NCBI GenBank assembly: GCA_009991955.1
Contig: JAACWS010000024.1
Span: 1 to 64,000 of the forward strand
Reading direction: 5' to 3'
Source: Spirochaetales bacterium
GTDB lineage: Bacteria > Spirochaetota > Spirochaetia > DSM-27196 > Salinispiraceae
Length of the DNA: 64,000 nucleotides
Of this stretch, positions 22,522-30,182 are shown in pieces. The notes below the pieces were generated by a model that had not been told where the DNA came from, searched no databases, and saw only the letters and a list, made by a program, of their open reading frames with translations. A program made the translations under genes and the position numbers. The stretch's first letter is position 1. Each line of letters begins with the position of its first letter.

Positions 22522-22550
22522 TTTACATTCGTGAATCAACTTACTATATT
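22522..22550 (+). promoter_or_regulatory. glnA: glnA promoter
   Basis: TTTACA (22522-22527), 17 bases, TATATT (22545-22550). The start near 22557 gives a ~46-base leader ending in AGGAAAGGAG before ATG 22603. No sigma-54 type promoter is seen. Confidence 0.65.
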
Positions 22551-22602
22551 TCCTACGTCAACGTATGAAAATAACGTTTATGCTACAGGAAAGGAGTATT
22601 AC

Positions 22603-24006
22603 ATGTCAGCAACTGCAATTTTGGACATGATGAAGAAAGAAGGTATCGAGTACGTCGATCTCCAGTTTGGGGATATGTTCGGCATGCTCCAGCACACTAC
22701 TTTCGTGGCCTCGGAACTCGACGAAGATCAGCTAGAGAACGGAATTCCCTTCGACGGCTCTTCGATCCGAGCATGGAAAAGTATCGATAAGTCGGACATG
22801 GTATTTAAACCAGACTTGAGTTCGGCTTTCGTAGACCCTTTCCGAGAACAAAAGACCTTGGTCATGTACGGCGATATCTATGAGCCTCGGACCGGCGAAC
22901 GCTACGAAAGAAGTCCTCGAAACATCGCCTTTAAGGCCCTGGAGTATATGAAAAGTCTCGGAATTGGTGACGAACTCTTTTTTGGCCCCGAGCCTGAGTT
23001 CTTCATTTTTGACGGTGTTCGATACTTCATTGAACCTAGGGGTAGCTTTTTCGAAATCGATACCGAAGAAGGACCTTGGAACACCGGTGCCGATGGGGTA
23101 AATCTTGGTCACAAGATTCGACATAAAATGGGATACTTCCCTACCACTCCCCAAGATACCCTCATGGATATCCGGAGCGAAATTGTCACCAACATGAAAA
23201 AGATGGGAATGACGGTTTACCTCCACCACCACGAGGTAGCAACCGCCCAGGGCGAAATTGGAATTAAGTTTGGCGATATTATTACCGCCGGTGACCTGGT
23301 TCATAAATACAAGTACGCCGTAAAGAACACAGCCTACAAACACGGAAAGACTGCAACTTTCATGCCCAAGCCTATGTTTGGCGATAACGGGTCGGGAATG
23401 CACGCCCATACCTCTATTTGGAAGGGTGGAAAGAACACCTTCGCCGGTGACGGATACGCAAACCTGAGCCAAACCGCCCTCTATGCCATTGGAGGACTCC
23501 TAAAGCACGGTCGATCGATTCAGGCCTTCACAAATCCTACCGCCAACTCCTATCGTCGACTAGTTCCTGGCTATGAAGCACCGGTAAAGTTAGCCTACTC
23601 GGCAACAAACCGTTCTGCAGCCATCCGTATTCCCTATGTAACCAACGATAAAGCTCGACGGTTCGAGTTCCGCTGTGGGGACGCCTCAGGATCGCCTTAT
23701 TTAAACTTTGCCGCTATGACAATGGCTATGATTGATGGAATTCGGAATAAGCTCGACCCAGGTCCTGCCCTCGATAAGAACATTTACGACCTTCCACCAG
23801 AAGAAGCGAAGCTTATTCCTTCGACCTGCCCAACCCAGGAAGACGCGATCAAAGAAATGCTCGCCGATAGGGATTGGCTCATGGCTGGAGACGTCTTTAC
23901 CTCAGAGTTTATCGACGCCTATGCAGATCACCGGCTTAAGTCCGAGGTTGAGCCTATGAAGCTGCAACCCACTCCGCTGGAGTACGATCTATACTACGAC
24001 GTGTAA
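22603..24006 (+). CDS. glnA: Glutamine synthetase type I
   Basis: 467 residues from ATG 22603, with AAAGGAG seven bases upstream; a longer GTG start at 22531 lies in the promoter and is rejected. It makes glutamine from glutamate, ammonia and ATP. Motifs seen: FDGSSIRAW, the metal/ATP motif GPEPEFFIFD, GDNGSGMHAH, and NRSAAIRIP. Tyr395 in KNIYDLPPEE matches the adenylylation tyrosine (Tyr397 in E. coli), so the enzyme is of the GlnE-regulated I-beta kind. glnE lies 2.3 kb downstream. Confidence 0.97.
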   Translation: MSATAILDMMKKEGIEYVDLQFGDMFGMLQHTTFVASELDEDQLENGIPFDGSSIRAWKSIDKSDMVFKPDLSSAFVDPFREQKTLVMYGDIYEPRTGERYERSPRNIAFKALEYMKSLGIGDELFFGPEPEFFIFDGVRYFIEPRGSFFEIDTEEGPWNTGADGVNLGHKIRHKMGYFPTTPQDTLMDIRSEIVTNMKKMGMTVYLHHHEVATAQGEIGIKFGDIITAGDLVHKYKYAVKNTAYKHGKTATFMPKPMFGDNGSGMHAHTSIWKGGKNTFAGDGYANLSQTALYAIGGLLKHGRSIQAFTNPTANSYRRLVPGYEAPVKLAYSATNRSAAIRIPYVTNDKARRFEFRCGDASGSPYLNFAAMTMAMIDGIRNKLDPGPALDKNIYDLPPEEAKLIPSTCPTQEDAIKEMLADRDWLMAGDVFTSEFIDAYADHRLKSEVEPMKLQPTPLEYDLYYDV

Positions 24007-25383: not shown

Positions 25384-26328
25384 ATGCAACTCACCCACTA
25401 TCCGCACTTTGCCCCTATTACTTTGGGACTCCGGGATGAACTCCTGCCTTACTTTTCCCGGATTACTTCGGGGATTTCGGAATTTTGTTTTGCAGGAATC
25501 TACCTCTTTCGAAAGACCTACGATTATCAGGTAGCCTTGCTAGAAAAAGACAAAATCATCCTTAAGGGAACCAAAGAAGGGCGGACCTTTTGTGCTTTAC
25601 CTCTTGGGCTTCCCGAAGACAAGGGTGTATTACGGACAATTCTTGAAGAAGTTGATTACCTGAAAGGCCTCAGCGAGGAACAGGCCGATTACCATCGGGT
25701 ATGGTTGGAACAACATCATCTCGAAATTTGCGAAGACCGAGATAATTTTGACTACCTCTATTCCCGGGAAGAACTAGCATCCCTATCGGGAAAACGCTTT
25801 CATAAAAAACGAAACCAGGTAAATTCCTTTCTCCATAACTACCCGAACCATAGGGGTGAGTTTCTTACCGACGAGAACCGTCATCATGCCTACGAGGTGT
25901 TAGAGGGGTGGAAAGAGGGGAGAGATGAAATCGAAGACTACCCTGCGAGCAAGGAAGCTCTAGACAAACAAAACGTGCTCGGCCTTACGGGGTATATCGT
26001 CTACGTAGACGAGGTGCCTGTAGCCTTTACTATGGGCGAAGGGATTATGAATGATTCAATGTACGTTATTCACATCGAGAAAGGTATACCTACCTACAAG
26101 GGAGTTTACCAATACATTAATCAGGCCTACGCCGAAGTCTTGCCAGAACGCTACGCCCTTATTAACCGGGAACAAGATTTAGGCGATCAGGGACTCAGGC
26201 AGGCAAAAATGACCTATCGGCCCATTGGGTTTTCGAAAAAATTCCGTGTTTACCAAGAAGCTTTAGTCAAGCAACCTTTTTATACCCGCTCCTGCGATGC
26301 CCAACCAGAGCCTATACTAGATGCATGA
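25384..26328 (+). CDS. DUF2156 / phosphatidylglycerol lysyltransferase C-terminal-like protein
   Basis: 314 residues from ATG 25384 (25369 is a possible alternative). The pattern LTHYPHFAPI, KRFHKKRNQVNSFL, then YIVYVDEVPVAFTMGE, IHIEKGIPTYKGVYQYIN and INREQDLGDQGLRQAKMTYRP is that of DUF2156, a GNAT-like acyl/aminoacyl-transferase fold. No membrane domain precedes it. The acceptor substrate is unknown. Its stop overlaps the start of glnE (ATGA), so the two are probably co-expressed. Confidence 0.75.
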   Translation: MQLTHYPHFAPITLGLRDELLPYFSRITSGISEFCFAGIYLFRKTYDYQVALLEKDKIILKGTKEGRTFCALPLGLPEDKGVLRTILEEVDYLKGLSEEQADYHRVWLEQHHLEICEDRDNFDYLYSREELASLSGKRFHKKRNQVNSFLHNYPNHRGEFLTDENRHHAYEVLEGWKEGRDEIEDYPASKEALDKQNVLGLTGYIVYVDEVPVAFTMGEGIMNDSMYVIHIEKGIPTYKGVYQYINQAYAEVLPERYALINREQDLGDQGLRQAKMTYRPIGFSKKFRVYQEALVKQPFYTRSCDAQPEPILDA

Positions 26329-29300
26329 CAATTCAAGATTACCTTGACCCAGCCCAAGGGGTACTAAAAGCAAGTTTGGGACAAAATGTAGTCCAGGAAC
26401 TGGTAAAGAGTATTCCCGAGGAACACCTTCTGTCCCTTTCGGTTCAACAGGTAATAAGAATTCTCCCCGCCCTCGCCCATCTCTCCGATGACGATCCCTA
26501 TGCACTCCTCGTGGTTCCCCATAATTCGTCCGATTCCTCCCAAGGAATCGAGCTGACCGTACTAACCTTTGATCAACCAGGATTGTTCGCTACTCTTTCG
26601 GGGATTTTGAGTGCTCTGGGATTTGCTACCTACGAAGGTACTATGATTACTACCCAGGTACTTTCTAATTCCAAGCGACGGGCAGCAGTGGATATTTTCT
26701 GGGGTAAACTGCCGACCGATGGGGACTTGGAACTGTGGGAAGGGGAACTTCGCCAACGGCTCCAACGGGTATTTGCCCTCTATCCCCAGGGGCCGGAAAA
26801 GGTAAAACAGTTTGTTATTGAAGAAGTAGCCCGGGCGTTGCGAACCGCAAACCTCTCGGCGGGCGAAATACTCGCTCCTATGACGATTTCGTACACCCTT
26901 ACCCCAACCGGAAGGGCTCGGTTTGAAATTGCGAGTACCAACACGCCCTTCTTCCTCTACAGTCTCAGTTCGGCTCTTTCTTTGCATCACGTATCAATCG
27001 AGGCTCTCGAAATTCGCACCCGTGGCGACCAAATTCTCGATGTCGTTGAACTTGCCCGGGAAGGAGGGAGCCCACTTGACGATGAGCACCTTCTAAACCG
27101 AATTAAACTGTCGATTCTTATGTCCAAGCAGTTCACCTATTTCGTAGACCGAGCGCCGGATCCCCTTCGGGCCCTGGTTCGATTTGATGCCCTGGTCCAG
27201 GATATTGGAGAAGTGCGAAGTTCGGCCGATATTCAGCAGCTCCTGGCCAGTGCAGACCTTCAGAAAGAGTTGGCCCTCATTCTGGGAACCTCAGATTTCT
27301 TGTGGGAAGATTTTATTCGAGTACAGCACGAAAACATATTGCCGATGATTCGAAGTCTAGGTGAACAAGAACTGTTGTCAACGAATCCCCAGGAGCTAGA
27401 GATATCCTTGCACAAAGCCCTTGAAACTGCCCGTAACCAAGCCCTATCGGTGGCCACCCGCGTGTCCTTCCAAGATCCCGTTGAGCAACTCCAGGGGGTT
27501 TTGGCGGCCCAGGTAAAGGCATTGAACGATTTCAAGAACCGGGAATCGTTCCTCATAGACCTGGACCATATTTTGGTCAAGGAACTGGACTTTTTCTTTT
27601 TGAGTCGGAGGCTCACCGCCCTGGCCGAGGCCGTCGTCAAGAAAGCTGTGGAGCTTGCCTGGGCGGAGTTGACCCCCAGGCATGGGATACCCCGGACCGC
27701 CGCAGGTATCCAAGCCGAATGGGCGATCTTTGGCCTTGGTAAACTCGGCGGCCGGGCCCTAGGCTACGCCTCGGATATCGAACTCCTCTTTGTCTATTCC
27801 GACTCGGGTACAACCGACGGGCAGAACCGTCTGGCTAATCGGGACTTTTTCGAACGGCTCTTCAAGAATGGGGCGGGGAAAATTACCGCCCGACGGGAAG
27901 GAATCTTCAAGGTAGATCTACGGCTCCGGCCTCACGGGGACGACGGTCCAGTTGCGGTCCGGCTCCAGAGTTTTATCGACTACTTCGGCCGGGACGGTCA
28001 GGCCCACAGTGCCGAACGCCTGGCTCTGGTTCGTCTTCGGTGGATTGGAGGATCAAAGGATCTGGGCGATCAAGTGAGCCGGATTCGCGATCGGGTTATT
28101 TACGAAGAAGATTCAATTGATATTTCCGAGCTCCGGACCCTCCGGCGTCGGCAGTTCGAAGAAAAAACTGGTACAAAGAAGGGTACAAAACCCCGGACCA
28201 ATGCAAAGTTCTCCCCCGGGACCTTGGTCGACCTGGAATATAATGTCCAAATTCTGCAGGTGATTCACGGACGGCATAATCCCCAGCTAAGGGTGCCAGG
28301 GATTCACCAGGCCCTCGAAGAACTCTCAGCCCTGGGAACAATCGACCCAGACGAGGCCGAGGCGATGGTTCGGGCGTATCAATTCTTTCGAATCCTCATA
28401 AATGGCCTTCGTATGCTTCGGGGAAACGCCGAAGACCTCTTCCTTCCCGATCGCAAGGATATCGAGTTTCGCCACTTGGCTCGACGCATCGGCTACGAGC
28501 CAACCCAGAATCAGCAGGAAGAAGACCAGTTGAGCATCGACTTTGAGACCTTCTCGGCCAAAATTCGCCAATTTGTCGAACGCCACCTGGGGAGAGACGC
28601 CCTGCCTACTCCCGCGGCCGGATCGGTAGTCGACCTCATTCTGAACCAGGCGGTCTCCGATGAGCTTCTGGCCCGGGTTATGGACCAGGGAGGTTTTTTG
28701 AATCACCGGCGGGCCCTGGTCAACATTAAAAGTTTGGCGGGTTCGGCAGAGCAACAACAGGAGTTTAGCCGGCTCATTGTTCTTTCCTGGGATACCCTCG
28801 TGACAAGCCCCGACCCCGACATGGCCCTGAACAACTGGGAACAGTTCGTTCGCCGACTCCCCGATCCCTTGGAGCACTTTCGTCAGCTTCTTTCCCAGCC
28901 AAAACGCATATCGCTGCTTTTGAGCCTCTTTGGGGTAAGTCAGTTTTTGTCCGATACCCTCATTCAGAACCCTGACTTTTTTGCCTGGATTACCGACCCT
29001 TCAATCGTTGGAAAGGCTCGGGACCAAATTACTATGGAACAAGACCTTCGGGTCCAGGCCCAAGAGTCCCATTCTCGGCTGGACTGGGTGAATCGACTTC
29101 GCCTGTTTCGAAAAAGGGAAATTTTACGCATAGGCCTAAGGGATTTGGGGCTGGGGGTCAAACTCGAGGAGATTATGGGCGAGATTTCTTTCCTCGCCCG
29201 AGCTTGCTGCGAGGTGGCCCTGGATCAATGTTGGAAAAGGGTGGCCCCCTCTGGTACAGACCCAAGTCTAGTCGGTCCCGACCCGGACCATCTAGTGGTG

Positions 29301-30182
29301 TGTGGATTTGGAAAGCTCGGGGGCTGGGAGCTTAACTACAGCTCGGATATCGACCTTGTGGCAATCTACCAACCTCGTGGGGAGAGTCGAACCGAAGAGG
29401 AAGAACTAACCTACACTAAGGTTGTAAAGTCCCTGGTCCAAGACCTCACGGACTTTACCCAAGAAGGACAAGCCTATCGGGTCGACCTTCGACTTCGACC
29501 CTACGGGGTAAGTGGTCCCTTGGTTTCAACCCTTACTTCAATTCTCGACTATTACGAAAACCACGCTGACCTTTGGGAGTTCCAGGCCCTTATTAAGCTC
29601 AAACCTGTGGCGGGTAACCTGAGCCTGGGCGAAATTTTCCTCGATCGCGTACGTGATCCGTTTATTCAAAAATGGGATCCCCCCCGGGTTCGATCGAGCA
29701 TCGCCCGTATGCGCGACCTTGCTCTAAAAGAGCACACCTCCAGGCTGGGGGACCGGATCGACGTAAAAAACAGCAAGGGTGGTATTCGTGATATCGAGTT
29801 TCGAGTGCAAGGACTTCAGCTCATTCACAGCGCCGAATATCCCCAACTTTTGAAGGGAAACACCCTACGGTCTCTTGCGCTTTTGAGGGAGCAGGGTATT
29901 ATTTCCGAGTCTGATCTACATCAGGTCTCGGGCGATTATCGGTTCTTGCGTCGAATCGAGCACTATCTTCAGATTTCCGAAGACCGGCAGCTTCATACCC
30001 TGCCCGACAGCCTTCAACAAAGAGAGAAACTCGCCTGGTTCTTGTCCGATGCCCTCGCCGAAGTAGGAAAAAAGCCCCAGGGAACAGCAAGGTTTAGGGC
30101 CGAGGAATTTTTTGCTACCCTCCAACAGGTTATGATACGGGTTCGGACCGCCTACGAGGAGTTTCTGAATCCGCGATCCTAG
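26325..30182 (+). CDS. glnE: Glutamine synthetase adenylyltransferase/deadenylylase with N-terminal ACT-like extension
   Basis: 1285 residues, against about 945 for E. coli GlnE. Two nucleotidyltransferase domains are clear: FGLGKLGGRALGYASDIELL near residue 465 and CGFGKLGGWELNYSSDIDLV near 990, each with an associated helical domain. They remove and add AMP on glutamine synthetase. The first ~250 residues are extra and contain two ACT-like units: LTVLTFDQPGLFATLSGIL (~77-95) and RFEIASTNTPFFLYSLSSAL (~200-220), as at the C-terminus of GlnD. This suggests direct glutamine sensing. A TATACT box lies 6 bases before the ATG and may be an extra promoter. Confidence 0.93.
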   Translation: MTIQDYLDPAQGVLKASLGQNVVQELVKSIPEEHLLSLSVQQVIRILPALAHLSDDDPYALLVVPHNSSDSSQGIELTVLTFDQPGLFATLSGILSALGFATYEGTMITTQVLSNSKRRAAVDIFWGKLPTDGDLELWEGELRQRLQRVFALYPQGPEKVKQFVIEEVARALRTANLSAGEILAPMTISYTLTPTGRARFEIASTNTPFFLYSLSSALSLHHVSIEALEIRTRGDQILDVVELAREGGSPLDDEHLLNRIKLSILMSKQFTYFVDRAPDPLRALVRFDALVQDIGEVRSSADIQQLLASADLQKELALILGTSDFLWEDFIRVQHENILPMIRSLGEQELLSTNPQELEISLHKALETARNQALSVATRVSFQDPVEQLQGVLAAQVKALNDFKNRESFLIDLDHILVKELDFFFLSRRLTALAEAVVKKAVELAWAELTPRHGIPRTAAGIQAEWAIFGLGKLGGRALGYASDIELLFVYSDSGTTDGQNRLANRDFFERLFKNGAGKITARREGIFKVDLRLRPHGDDGPVAVRLQSFIDYFGRDGQAHSAERLALVRLRWIGGSKDLGDQVSRIRDRVIYEEDSIDISELRTLRRRQFEEKTGTKKGTKPRTNAKFSPGTLVDLEYNVQILQVIHGRHNPQLRVPGIHQALEELSALGTIDPDEAEAMVRAYQFFRILINGLRMLRGNAEDLFLPDRKDIEFRHLARRIGYEPTQNQQEEDQLSIDFETFSAKIRQFVERHLGRDALPTPAAGSVVDLILNQAVSDELLARVMDQGGFLNHRRALVNIKSLAGSAEQQQEFSRLIVLSWDTLVTSPDPDMALNNWEQFVRRLPDPLEHFRQLLSQPKRISLLLSLFGVSQFLSDTLIQNPDFFAWITDPSIVGKARDQITMEQDLRVQAQESHSRLDWVNRLRLFRKREILRIGLRDLGLGVKLEEIMGEISFLARACCEVALDQCWKRVAPSGTDPSLVGPDPDHLVVCGFGKLGGWELNYSSDIDLVAIYQPRGESRTEEEELTYTKVVKSLVQDLTDFTQEGQAYRVDLRLRPYGVSGPLVSTLTSILDYYENHADLWEFQALIKLKPVAGNLSLGEIFLDRVRDPFIQKWDPPRVRSSIARMRDLALKEHTSRLGDRIDVKNSKGGIRDIEFRVQGLQLIHSAEYPQLLKGNTLRSLALLREQGIISESDLHQVSGDYRFLRRIEHYLQISEDRQLHTLPDSLQQREKLAWFLSDALAEVGKKPQGTARFRAEEFFATLQQVMIRVRTAYEEFLNPRS

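Follow-up and report, generated by a model that had tools for sequence, protein, structure and literature searches.

The window examined in this study is the whole 64,000-nucleotide stretch of a Spirochaetales contig, and at 26325-30182 on its forward strand it carries a single open reading frame that begins with ATG, shares 4 bases with the frame upstream of it, and encodes a GlnE protein of 1285 amino acids. Canonical E. coli GlnE has 946 amino acids, and the added length of the window protein is N-terminal. We found that the GlnE family model PF03710 matches the protein in two stretches (E 3.1e-93), corresponding to the two nucleotidyltransferase domains of a bifunctional GlnE, and that the protein does not reach the curated cut-offs set for the GlnE equivalog models. 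The gene for a glutamine synthetase, glnA, lies 2.3 kb upstream. The features of the locus are listed below, with AT standing for adenylyltransferase and AR for the deadenylylation domain.

22531..24006, + strand: glnA, type I glutamine synthetase, the probable substrate (TIGR00653, E 4e-182)
23785..23787, + strand: codon of the GlnA adenylylation Tyr (NIYDLPPEE)
26325..30182, + strand: fusion gene encoding a GlnD-type C-terminal module, AT, and AR, 1285 aa
26325..26498, + strand: helical segment corresponding to the GlnD pre-ACT segment, aa 1-58 (hhalign against GlnD C-termini; helices in the model)
26499..26789, + strand: ACT1, aa 59-155, with the D83-Q-P-G-L ligand-loop motif retained
26883..27152, + strand: ACT2, aa 187-276, with loop N206-T-P-F-F (D-T-P-F/A-F in the family) and the loop Gly replaced
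27153..28604, + strand: regulatory helices and AT domain, aa 277-760, corresponding to E. coli GlnE 514-946 (hhalign, tree, G480)
27738..27782, + strand: AT catalytic motif G472-x11-D484-x-E486
28830..30179, + strand: AR domain, aa 836-1285, corresponding to E. coli GlnE 12-412 and including the class residue N1004
29310..29354, + strand: AR catalytic motif G996-x11-D1008-x-D1010

The catalytic carboxylates of both nucleotidyltransferase sites (D484/E486 and D1008/D1010) are present in 61/61 sequences, and the AT motif reads D-x-E in all 61 aligned sequences where the canonical motif is D-x-D. Conservation over the full length in 60 relatives led us to reject the possibility that the N-terminal extension arises by chance or from a mis-set start. 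The original prediction, made from the letters of the window, had described this frame as a GlnE with two N-terminal ACT-like units, and the reading frame, the profile comparison, and the AlphaFold model all agree with that description.

Since the N-terminus scores below the cut-off of the ACT model PF01842 (24.7 bits vs 27 bits), automatic annotation would miss the ACT domains in this GlnE. The first 300 amino acids match the GlnD model TIGR01693 at its residues 611-844 only (E 2.6e-8), and since the match is limited to the C-terminal part of that model, the window protein lacks the uridylyltransferase and HD domains of GlnD. When a profile of the N-termini of 58 fusion-family members was compared with one of 23 GlnD C-termini by hhalign, the two matched with a probability of 99.8% (E 2.8e-28) over approximately residues 11-263 of the window protein. 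Since this match takes in the segment before ACT1, it identifies the whole GlnD module rather than a generic ACT domain, with the pre-ACT segment and the two ACT domains in the same order and homologous to the GlnD C-terminus. The ACT fold, on which the original prediction hinged, was confidently predicted by AlphaFold for residues 1-290 (mean pLDDT 93.8, pTM 0.91), in a model with two beta-alpha-beta-beta-alpha units at about 74-155 and 198-274. The top Foldseek match was the tandem-ACT large glutamate dehydrogenase (E 3.5e-7, with a low global TM), a single ACT-like domain followed at lower rank (TM 0.74), and a sequence search of solved structures with the ACT region returned no significant match. 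The ACT pair is genuine, and its type is specifically that of GlnD.

A glycine in the ligand loop is near-invariant among ACT domains. In ACT2, this glycine is replaced by Phe or Ala throughout the fusion family, while in ACT1 it is retained in approximately half of the family, including the window protein. Other positions of the pair (D83, G93, G105, and D206-T207-P208) are conserved in 58 to 61 of 61 sequences. Residue 206 is Asn in the window protein alone (1/61) and Asp in the other 60 aligned members; the window protein also deviates at several other family-conserved positions, and its own ACT pair may be relaxing.

By comparison of sequences, the domain order is ACT-ACT-AT-AR, which reverses the canonical AR-AT and was not part of the original prediction. 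Simple pairwise BLAST could not place the first half (110 vs 112 bits), so the order was examined through profiles, a tree, and class residues. By hhalign against whole canonical GlnE, a profile covering residues 266-840 picked the AT half (E. coli 514-946; 100%, E 3.2e-65), and the part of canonical GlnE that the second half resembled most, in E. coli and elsewhere, was the N-terminal AR half. A maximum-likelihood tree built from 81 domains placed the first halves with proteobacterial AT domains (support 94/87) and the second halves with canonical AR (support 98/93). A class-specific residue has been reported for GlnE domains, N169 in AR and G697 in AT (PMC4454073), and we found G480 in the first domain and N1004 in the second, each in 61/61 sequences, which gives the window GlnE one AT-class and one AR-class domain. 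Together, AR-half similarity, profile, tree, and class residues are concordant in supporting the order ACT-ACT-AT-AR, and the canonical order was rejected on these grounds. Since the protein does not follow the canonical order of AR and then AT, we file it as a permuted variant of bifunctional GlnE.

The same ACT-ACT-AT-AR layout is common to 60 full-length relatives from Spirochaetota, Desulfobacterota-like genomes, and Verrucomicrobiota. One spirochaete (G035, locus L122) and two Verrucomicrobiota (G359 and G439; L269 and L270) encode AR-ACT-ACT-AT in one reading frame, and a Phycisphaeraceae genome (G194) encodes ACT-ACT-AT alone, as a protein of 756 aa (L250 1976-4246). No second PF03710 match or AR was found in the latter genome, where another enzyme might reverse adenylylation or the assembly might be incomplete. 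The ACT pair stands directly before the regulatory helices of AT in all layouts seen, and this placement is our chief ground for proposing that the pair acts on adenylylation. No second, canonical GlnE was found in the 50 genomes reached through fusion loci. Two apparent exceptions to the single-frame layouts were rejected. In G024, ACT-AT and AR appeared to be separate genes, but the pieces run to the ends of their contigs and match the AR-ACT-AT arrangement seen in its relative G035. In the 4.7-Mb chromosome of G197, the fusion is broken inside AT with its parts 2.1 Mb apart (L211 7626-9524; L248 1272-3599), and a single break through rearrangement or an assembly fault is more likely than a genuine split gene.

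GlnA of the window retains the adenylylation tyrosine, as had been predicted for Tyr395, which is residue 419 of the annotated frame and 395 when counted from an internal Met. This tyrosine is found in 31/31 aligned GlnA rows with letters at that column. Among the 74 loci examined, 32 were found to have glnA, in many cases immediately upstream of the fusion and on the same strand; at other loci, amtB-glnK lies directly upstream, and PII genes adjoin the fusion in several. The target of the fusion protein, as far as these sequences indicate, is probably the GlnA tyrosine, which it would both adenylylate and deadenylylate.

Tyr51 is the uridylylation site of PII (PMC4285133). The window itself holds neither glnB nor glnD, exactly as originally noted, and we extended this check to whole genomes with family searches, identifying PII by HMM search. 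No GlnD was found in the window's genome (assembly 93% complete), but PII is encoded beside amtB on another contig. This PII has Phe at the position of E. coli GlnB Tyr51. Among Spirochaetota, where 22 of 149 genomes have GlnE, GlnD was present in 0/7 genomes with the long ACT-AT-AR form and in 7/7 with canonical GlnE (941-1003 aa), a count that omits eight genomes (five of family f34 and three with AR-ACT-AT or fragments). Among Verrucomicrobiota, where 27 of 289 have GlnE, GlnD accompanied canonical-length GlnE in 14/14 genomes and long or fused GlnE in 1/13, with the layout assigned by domain search in six of 13 or so and by frame length in the rest. For the two phyla together, canonical GlnE co-occurs with GlnD in 21/21 genomes, and 19/20 fusion genomes are without GlnD; the nominal Fisher p of 1.7e-10, calculated on a count that still lacked one fragmented fusion genome, overstates independence since the genomes are related. 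The co-occurrence sample consists mostly of incomplete MAGs, and counts from related genomes are non-independent.

GlnD was found in 19 of the 50 genomes reached through fusion loci, namely 18 Desulfobacterota-like genomes and one spirochaete. All 18 Desulfobacterota-like genomes carry the fusion alongside both GlnD and Tyr51-PII, and the idea that the fusion strictly excludes GlnD was rejected, since these and two other genomes carry the fusion and GlnD together. Where PII was detectable, Tyr51-PII was present in 18/19 fusion genomes with GlnD, and Tyr51 was missing in 24/25 fusion genomes without it, residue 51 being F, T, I, L, S, E, V, or M in the GlnD-less set. At a threshold of E 1e-15, PII was not found in 13/50 fusion genomes, most of them incomplete. 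The two exceptions to the pairing are a spirochaete fusion genome with Tyr51-PII and no GlnD (G071; PII at L138) and a genome with GlnD and no Tyr51-PII (G179; L193, L224). Separately, the f34 spirochaetes (G059, G052, G084, G109, and G114; L116-L120) encode a GlnE of about 930 aa, in frames of 921-937 aa or truncated, that of L120 being cut at the contig end. Their AR half is normal and their AT half very divergent (branch of 4.4 changes per column), they have no GlnD, and PII residue 51 varies between copies, being either Lys or Tyr; such a system may be dominated by AR, or its adenylylation may be decaying.

In the canonical cascade, PII stimulates adenylylation and PII-UMP stimulates deadenylylation (PMC12409994); GlnD has one single glutamine site (PMC4285133), and its ACT domains are regarded as the glutamine sensor (PMC3173338). 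Where GlnD and Tyr51 are both gone, PII cannot carry the glutamine signal by the uridylylation route, which leaves the transplanted module as the obvious candidate to do so. We consider it likely, with a probability of roughly 0.6, that glutamine bound by the ACT pair directly controls AT and AR and that PII has ceased to convey the glutamine signal. We infer that glutamine binding favors AT and disfavors AR. At high glutamine, the ACT pair would bind it, the GlnA tyrosine would be adenylylated, and GlnA would be switched off; at low glutamine, AT would be unstimulated and AR would prevail, so that GlnA-AMP would be deadenylylated. In Spirochaetota and Verrucomicrobiota, the fusion would thereby take over the signal that otherwise passes from glutamine through GlnD and PII-UMP to GlnE, while a Tyr51-less PII, where present, would report only 2-oxoglutarate and nucleotides. 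The absence of GlnD, the loss of PII Tyr51, and the synteny with glnA or amtB-glnK are what direct sensing would predict.

Since PII is present in the window's genome, only the uridylylation branch seems to be bypassed. The original proposal, that the fusion could let GlnE sense glutamine directly and bypass part of the cascade, is partly supported. Since the fusion and GlnD occur together in Desulfobacterota-like genomes, the module would be an alternative or added input and not always a replacement, and there the fusion may add to the cascade rather than replace it.

The strongest counterpoint to glutamine control is the ligand loop, with its glycine replaced family-wide in ACT2 and kept in only about half of ACT1. 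The ligand could be altered, or binding could occur via another surface. ACT domains bind many amino acids, and the pair might bind a different amino acid or nitrogen metabolite and provide GlnE with a new input, with PII still the main nitrogen signal; loop residues unlike those of GlnD would fit this, as would the large glutamate dehydrogenase being the closest solved tandem. We consider this unlikely since the homology spans the entire C-terminal part of GlnD rather than an arbitrary ACT domain, and since, in two phyla, a genome with the fusion hardly ever has GlnD as well.

The loss of the ACT2 glycine, along with the PII genes next to the fusion in several loci, would also be compatible with a pair that binds nothing and serves as a docking or dimerization platform, for example for unmodified PII or GlnA. 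However, the strongly kept D83, G93, G105, and D206-T207-P208 are expected of a maintained site, and PII was not among the genes found in 13/50 fusion genomes, making such a platform quite improbable. E. coli GlnE itself is reported to respond to glutamine (Jiang et al. 2007, cited in PMC8097203), so direct sensing would be less exceptional than the original prediction implied. That response, and the persistence of GlnD and Tyr51-PII in Desulfobacterota-like genomes, would also suit an ordinary GlnE in which canonical sensing by the AT/AR core together with PII suffices and the extra domain has little effect. We consider this very unlikely, given that the module is conserved in several layouts and across three phyla or more, and that GlnD and PII Tyr51 are lacking outside the Desulfobacterota-like genomes.

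Each part of the fusion resembles a known system. Like E. coli bifunctional GlnE (PF03710 / NF008292), it has two homologous nucleotidyltransferase domains, with an AR-class N and an AT-class G, and a GlnA with the target tyrosine; unlike it, the fusion has the AT-AR order, a GlnD-type ACT module in front, and D-x-E instead of D-x-D in AT. The pre-ACT helices, ACT1, and ACT2 follow the order of GlnD (TIGR01693), but the module is N-terminal and joined to GlnE, without uridylyltransferase or HD domains and with the ACT2 loop Gly replaced. GlnD-like ACT pairs also occur away from uridylyltransferase in plant ACR11/ACR12 and in stand-alone bacterial ACT-repeat proteins, which, unlike the fusion, have no catalytic domains; ACR11 and plastid glutamine synthetase are coexpressed (PMC3173338). 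Free-standing proteins of about 200-300 aa whose match to GlnD is confined to its two ACT domains were seen in G029, G080, G100, G141, G148, and other genomes, with several per genome in some Spirochaetota. The large (180 kDa) NAD-glutamate dehydrogenase (PDB 7jsr/7a1d) likewise joins an N-terminal tandem ACT-type region to a nitrogen-metabolism enzyme, although the enzyme is a different one and global superposition is low. In the open-access papers searched, we found no description of a GlnE-ACT fusion, of the permutation, or of a link to GlnD/Tyr51 loss. The part families are known, while the combination, the permutation, and that link are apparently undescribed there; databases may list the architecture uncommented.

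We give about even odds to an evolutionary account in which the GlnD sensor moved onto the adenylyltransferase, GlnD and the PII tyrosine were then lost, and the cascade became a single-protein switch, with AR relocated so as to place the sensor directly on AT, as a widespread second solution to the control of glutamine synthetase. The GlnD-PII-GlnE-GlnA cascade is a textbook model of covalent signal transduction, and our findings suggest that in a spirochaete and in many uncultured bacteria from several phyla, many of which lack GlnD, its three nitrogen-signaling proteins have been condensed into one. The reversed AT-AR order tests how two opposing active sites communicate. If direct glutamine control is true, the first sensor of the cascade would be fused to its last enzyme with the middle step absent, which would illustrate how cascades shrink, offer a one-protein system for PII-free study of ACT glutamine sensing, and give a handle on what the bicyclic design is for.
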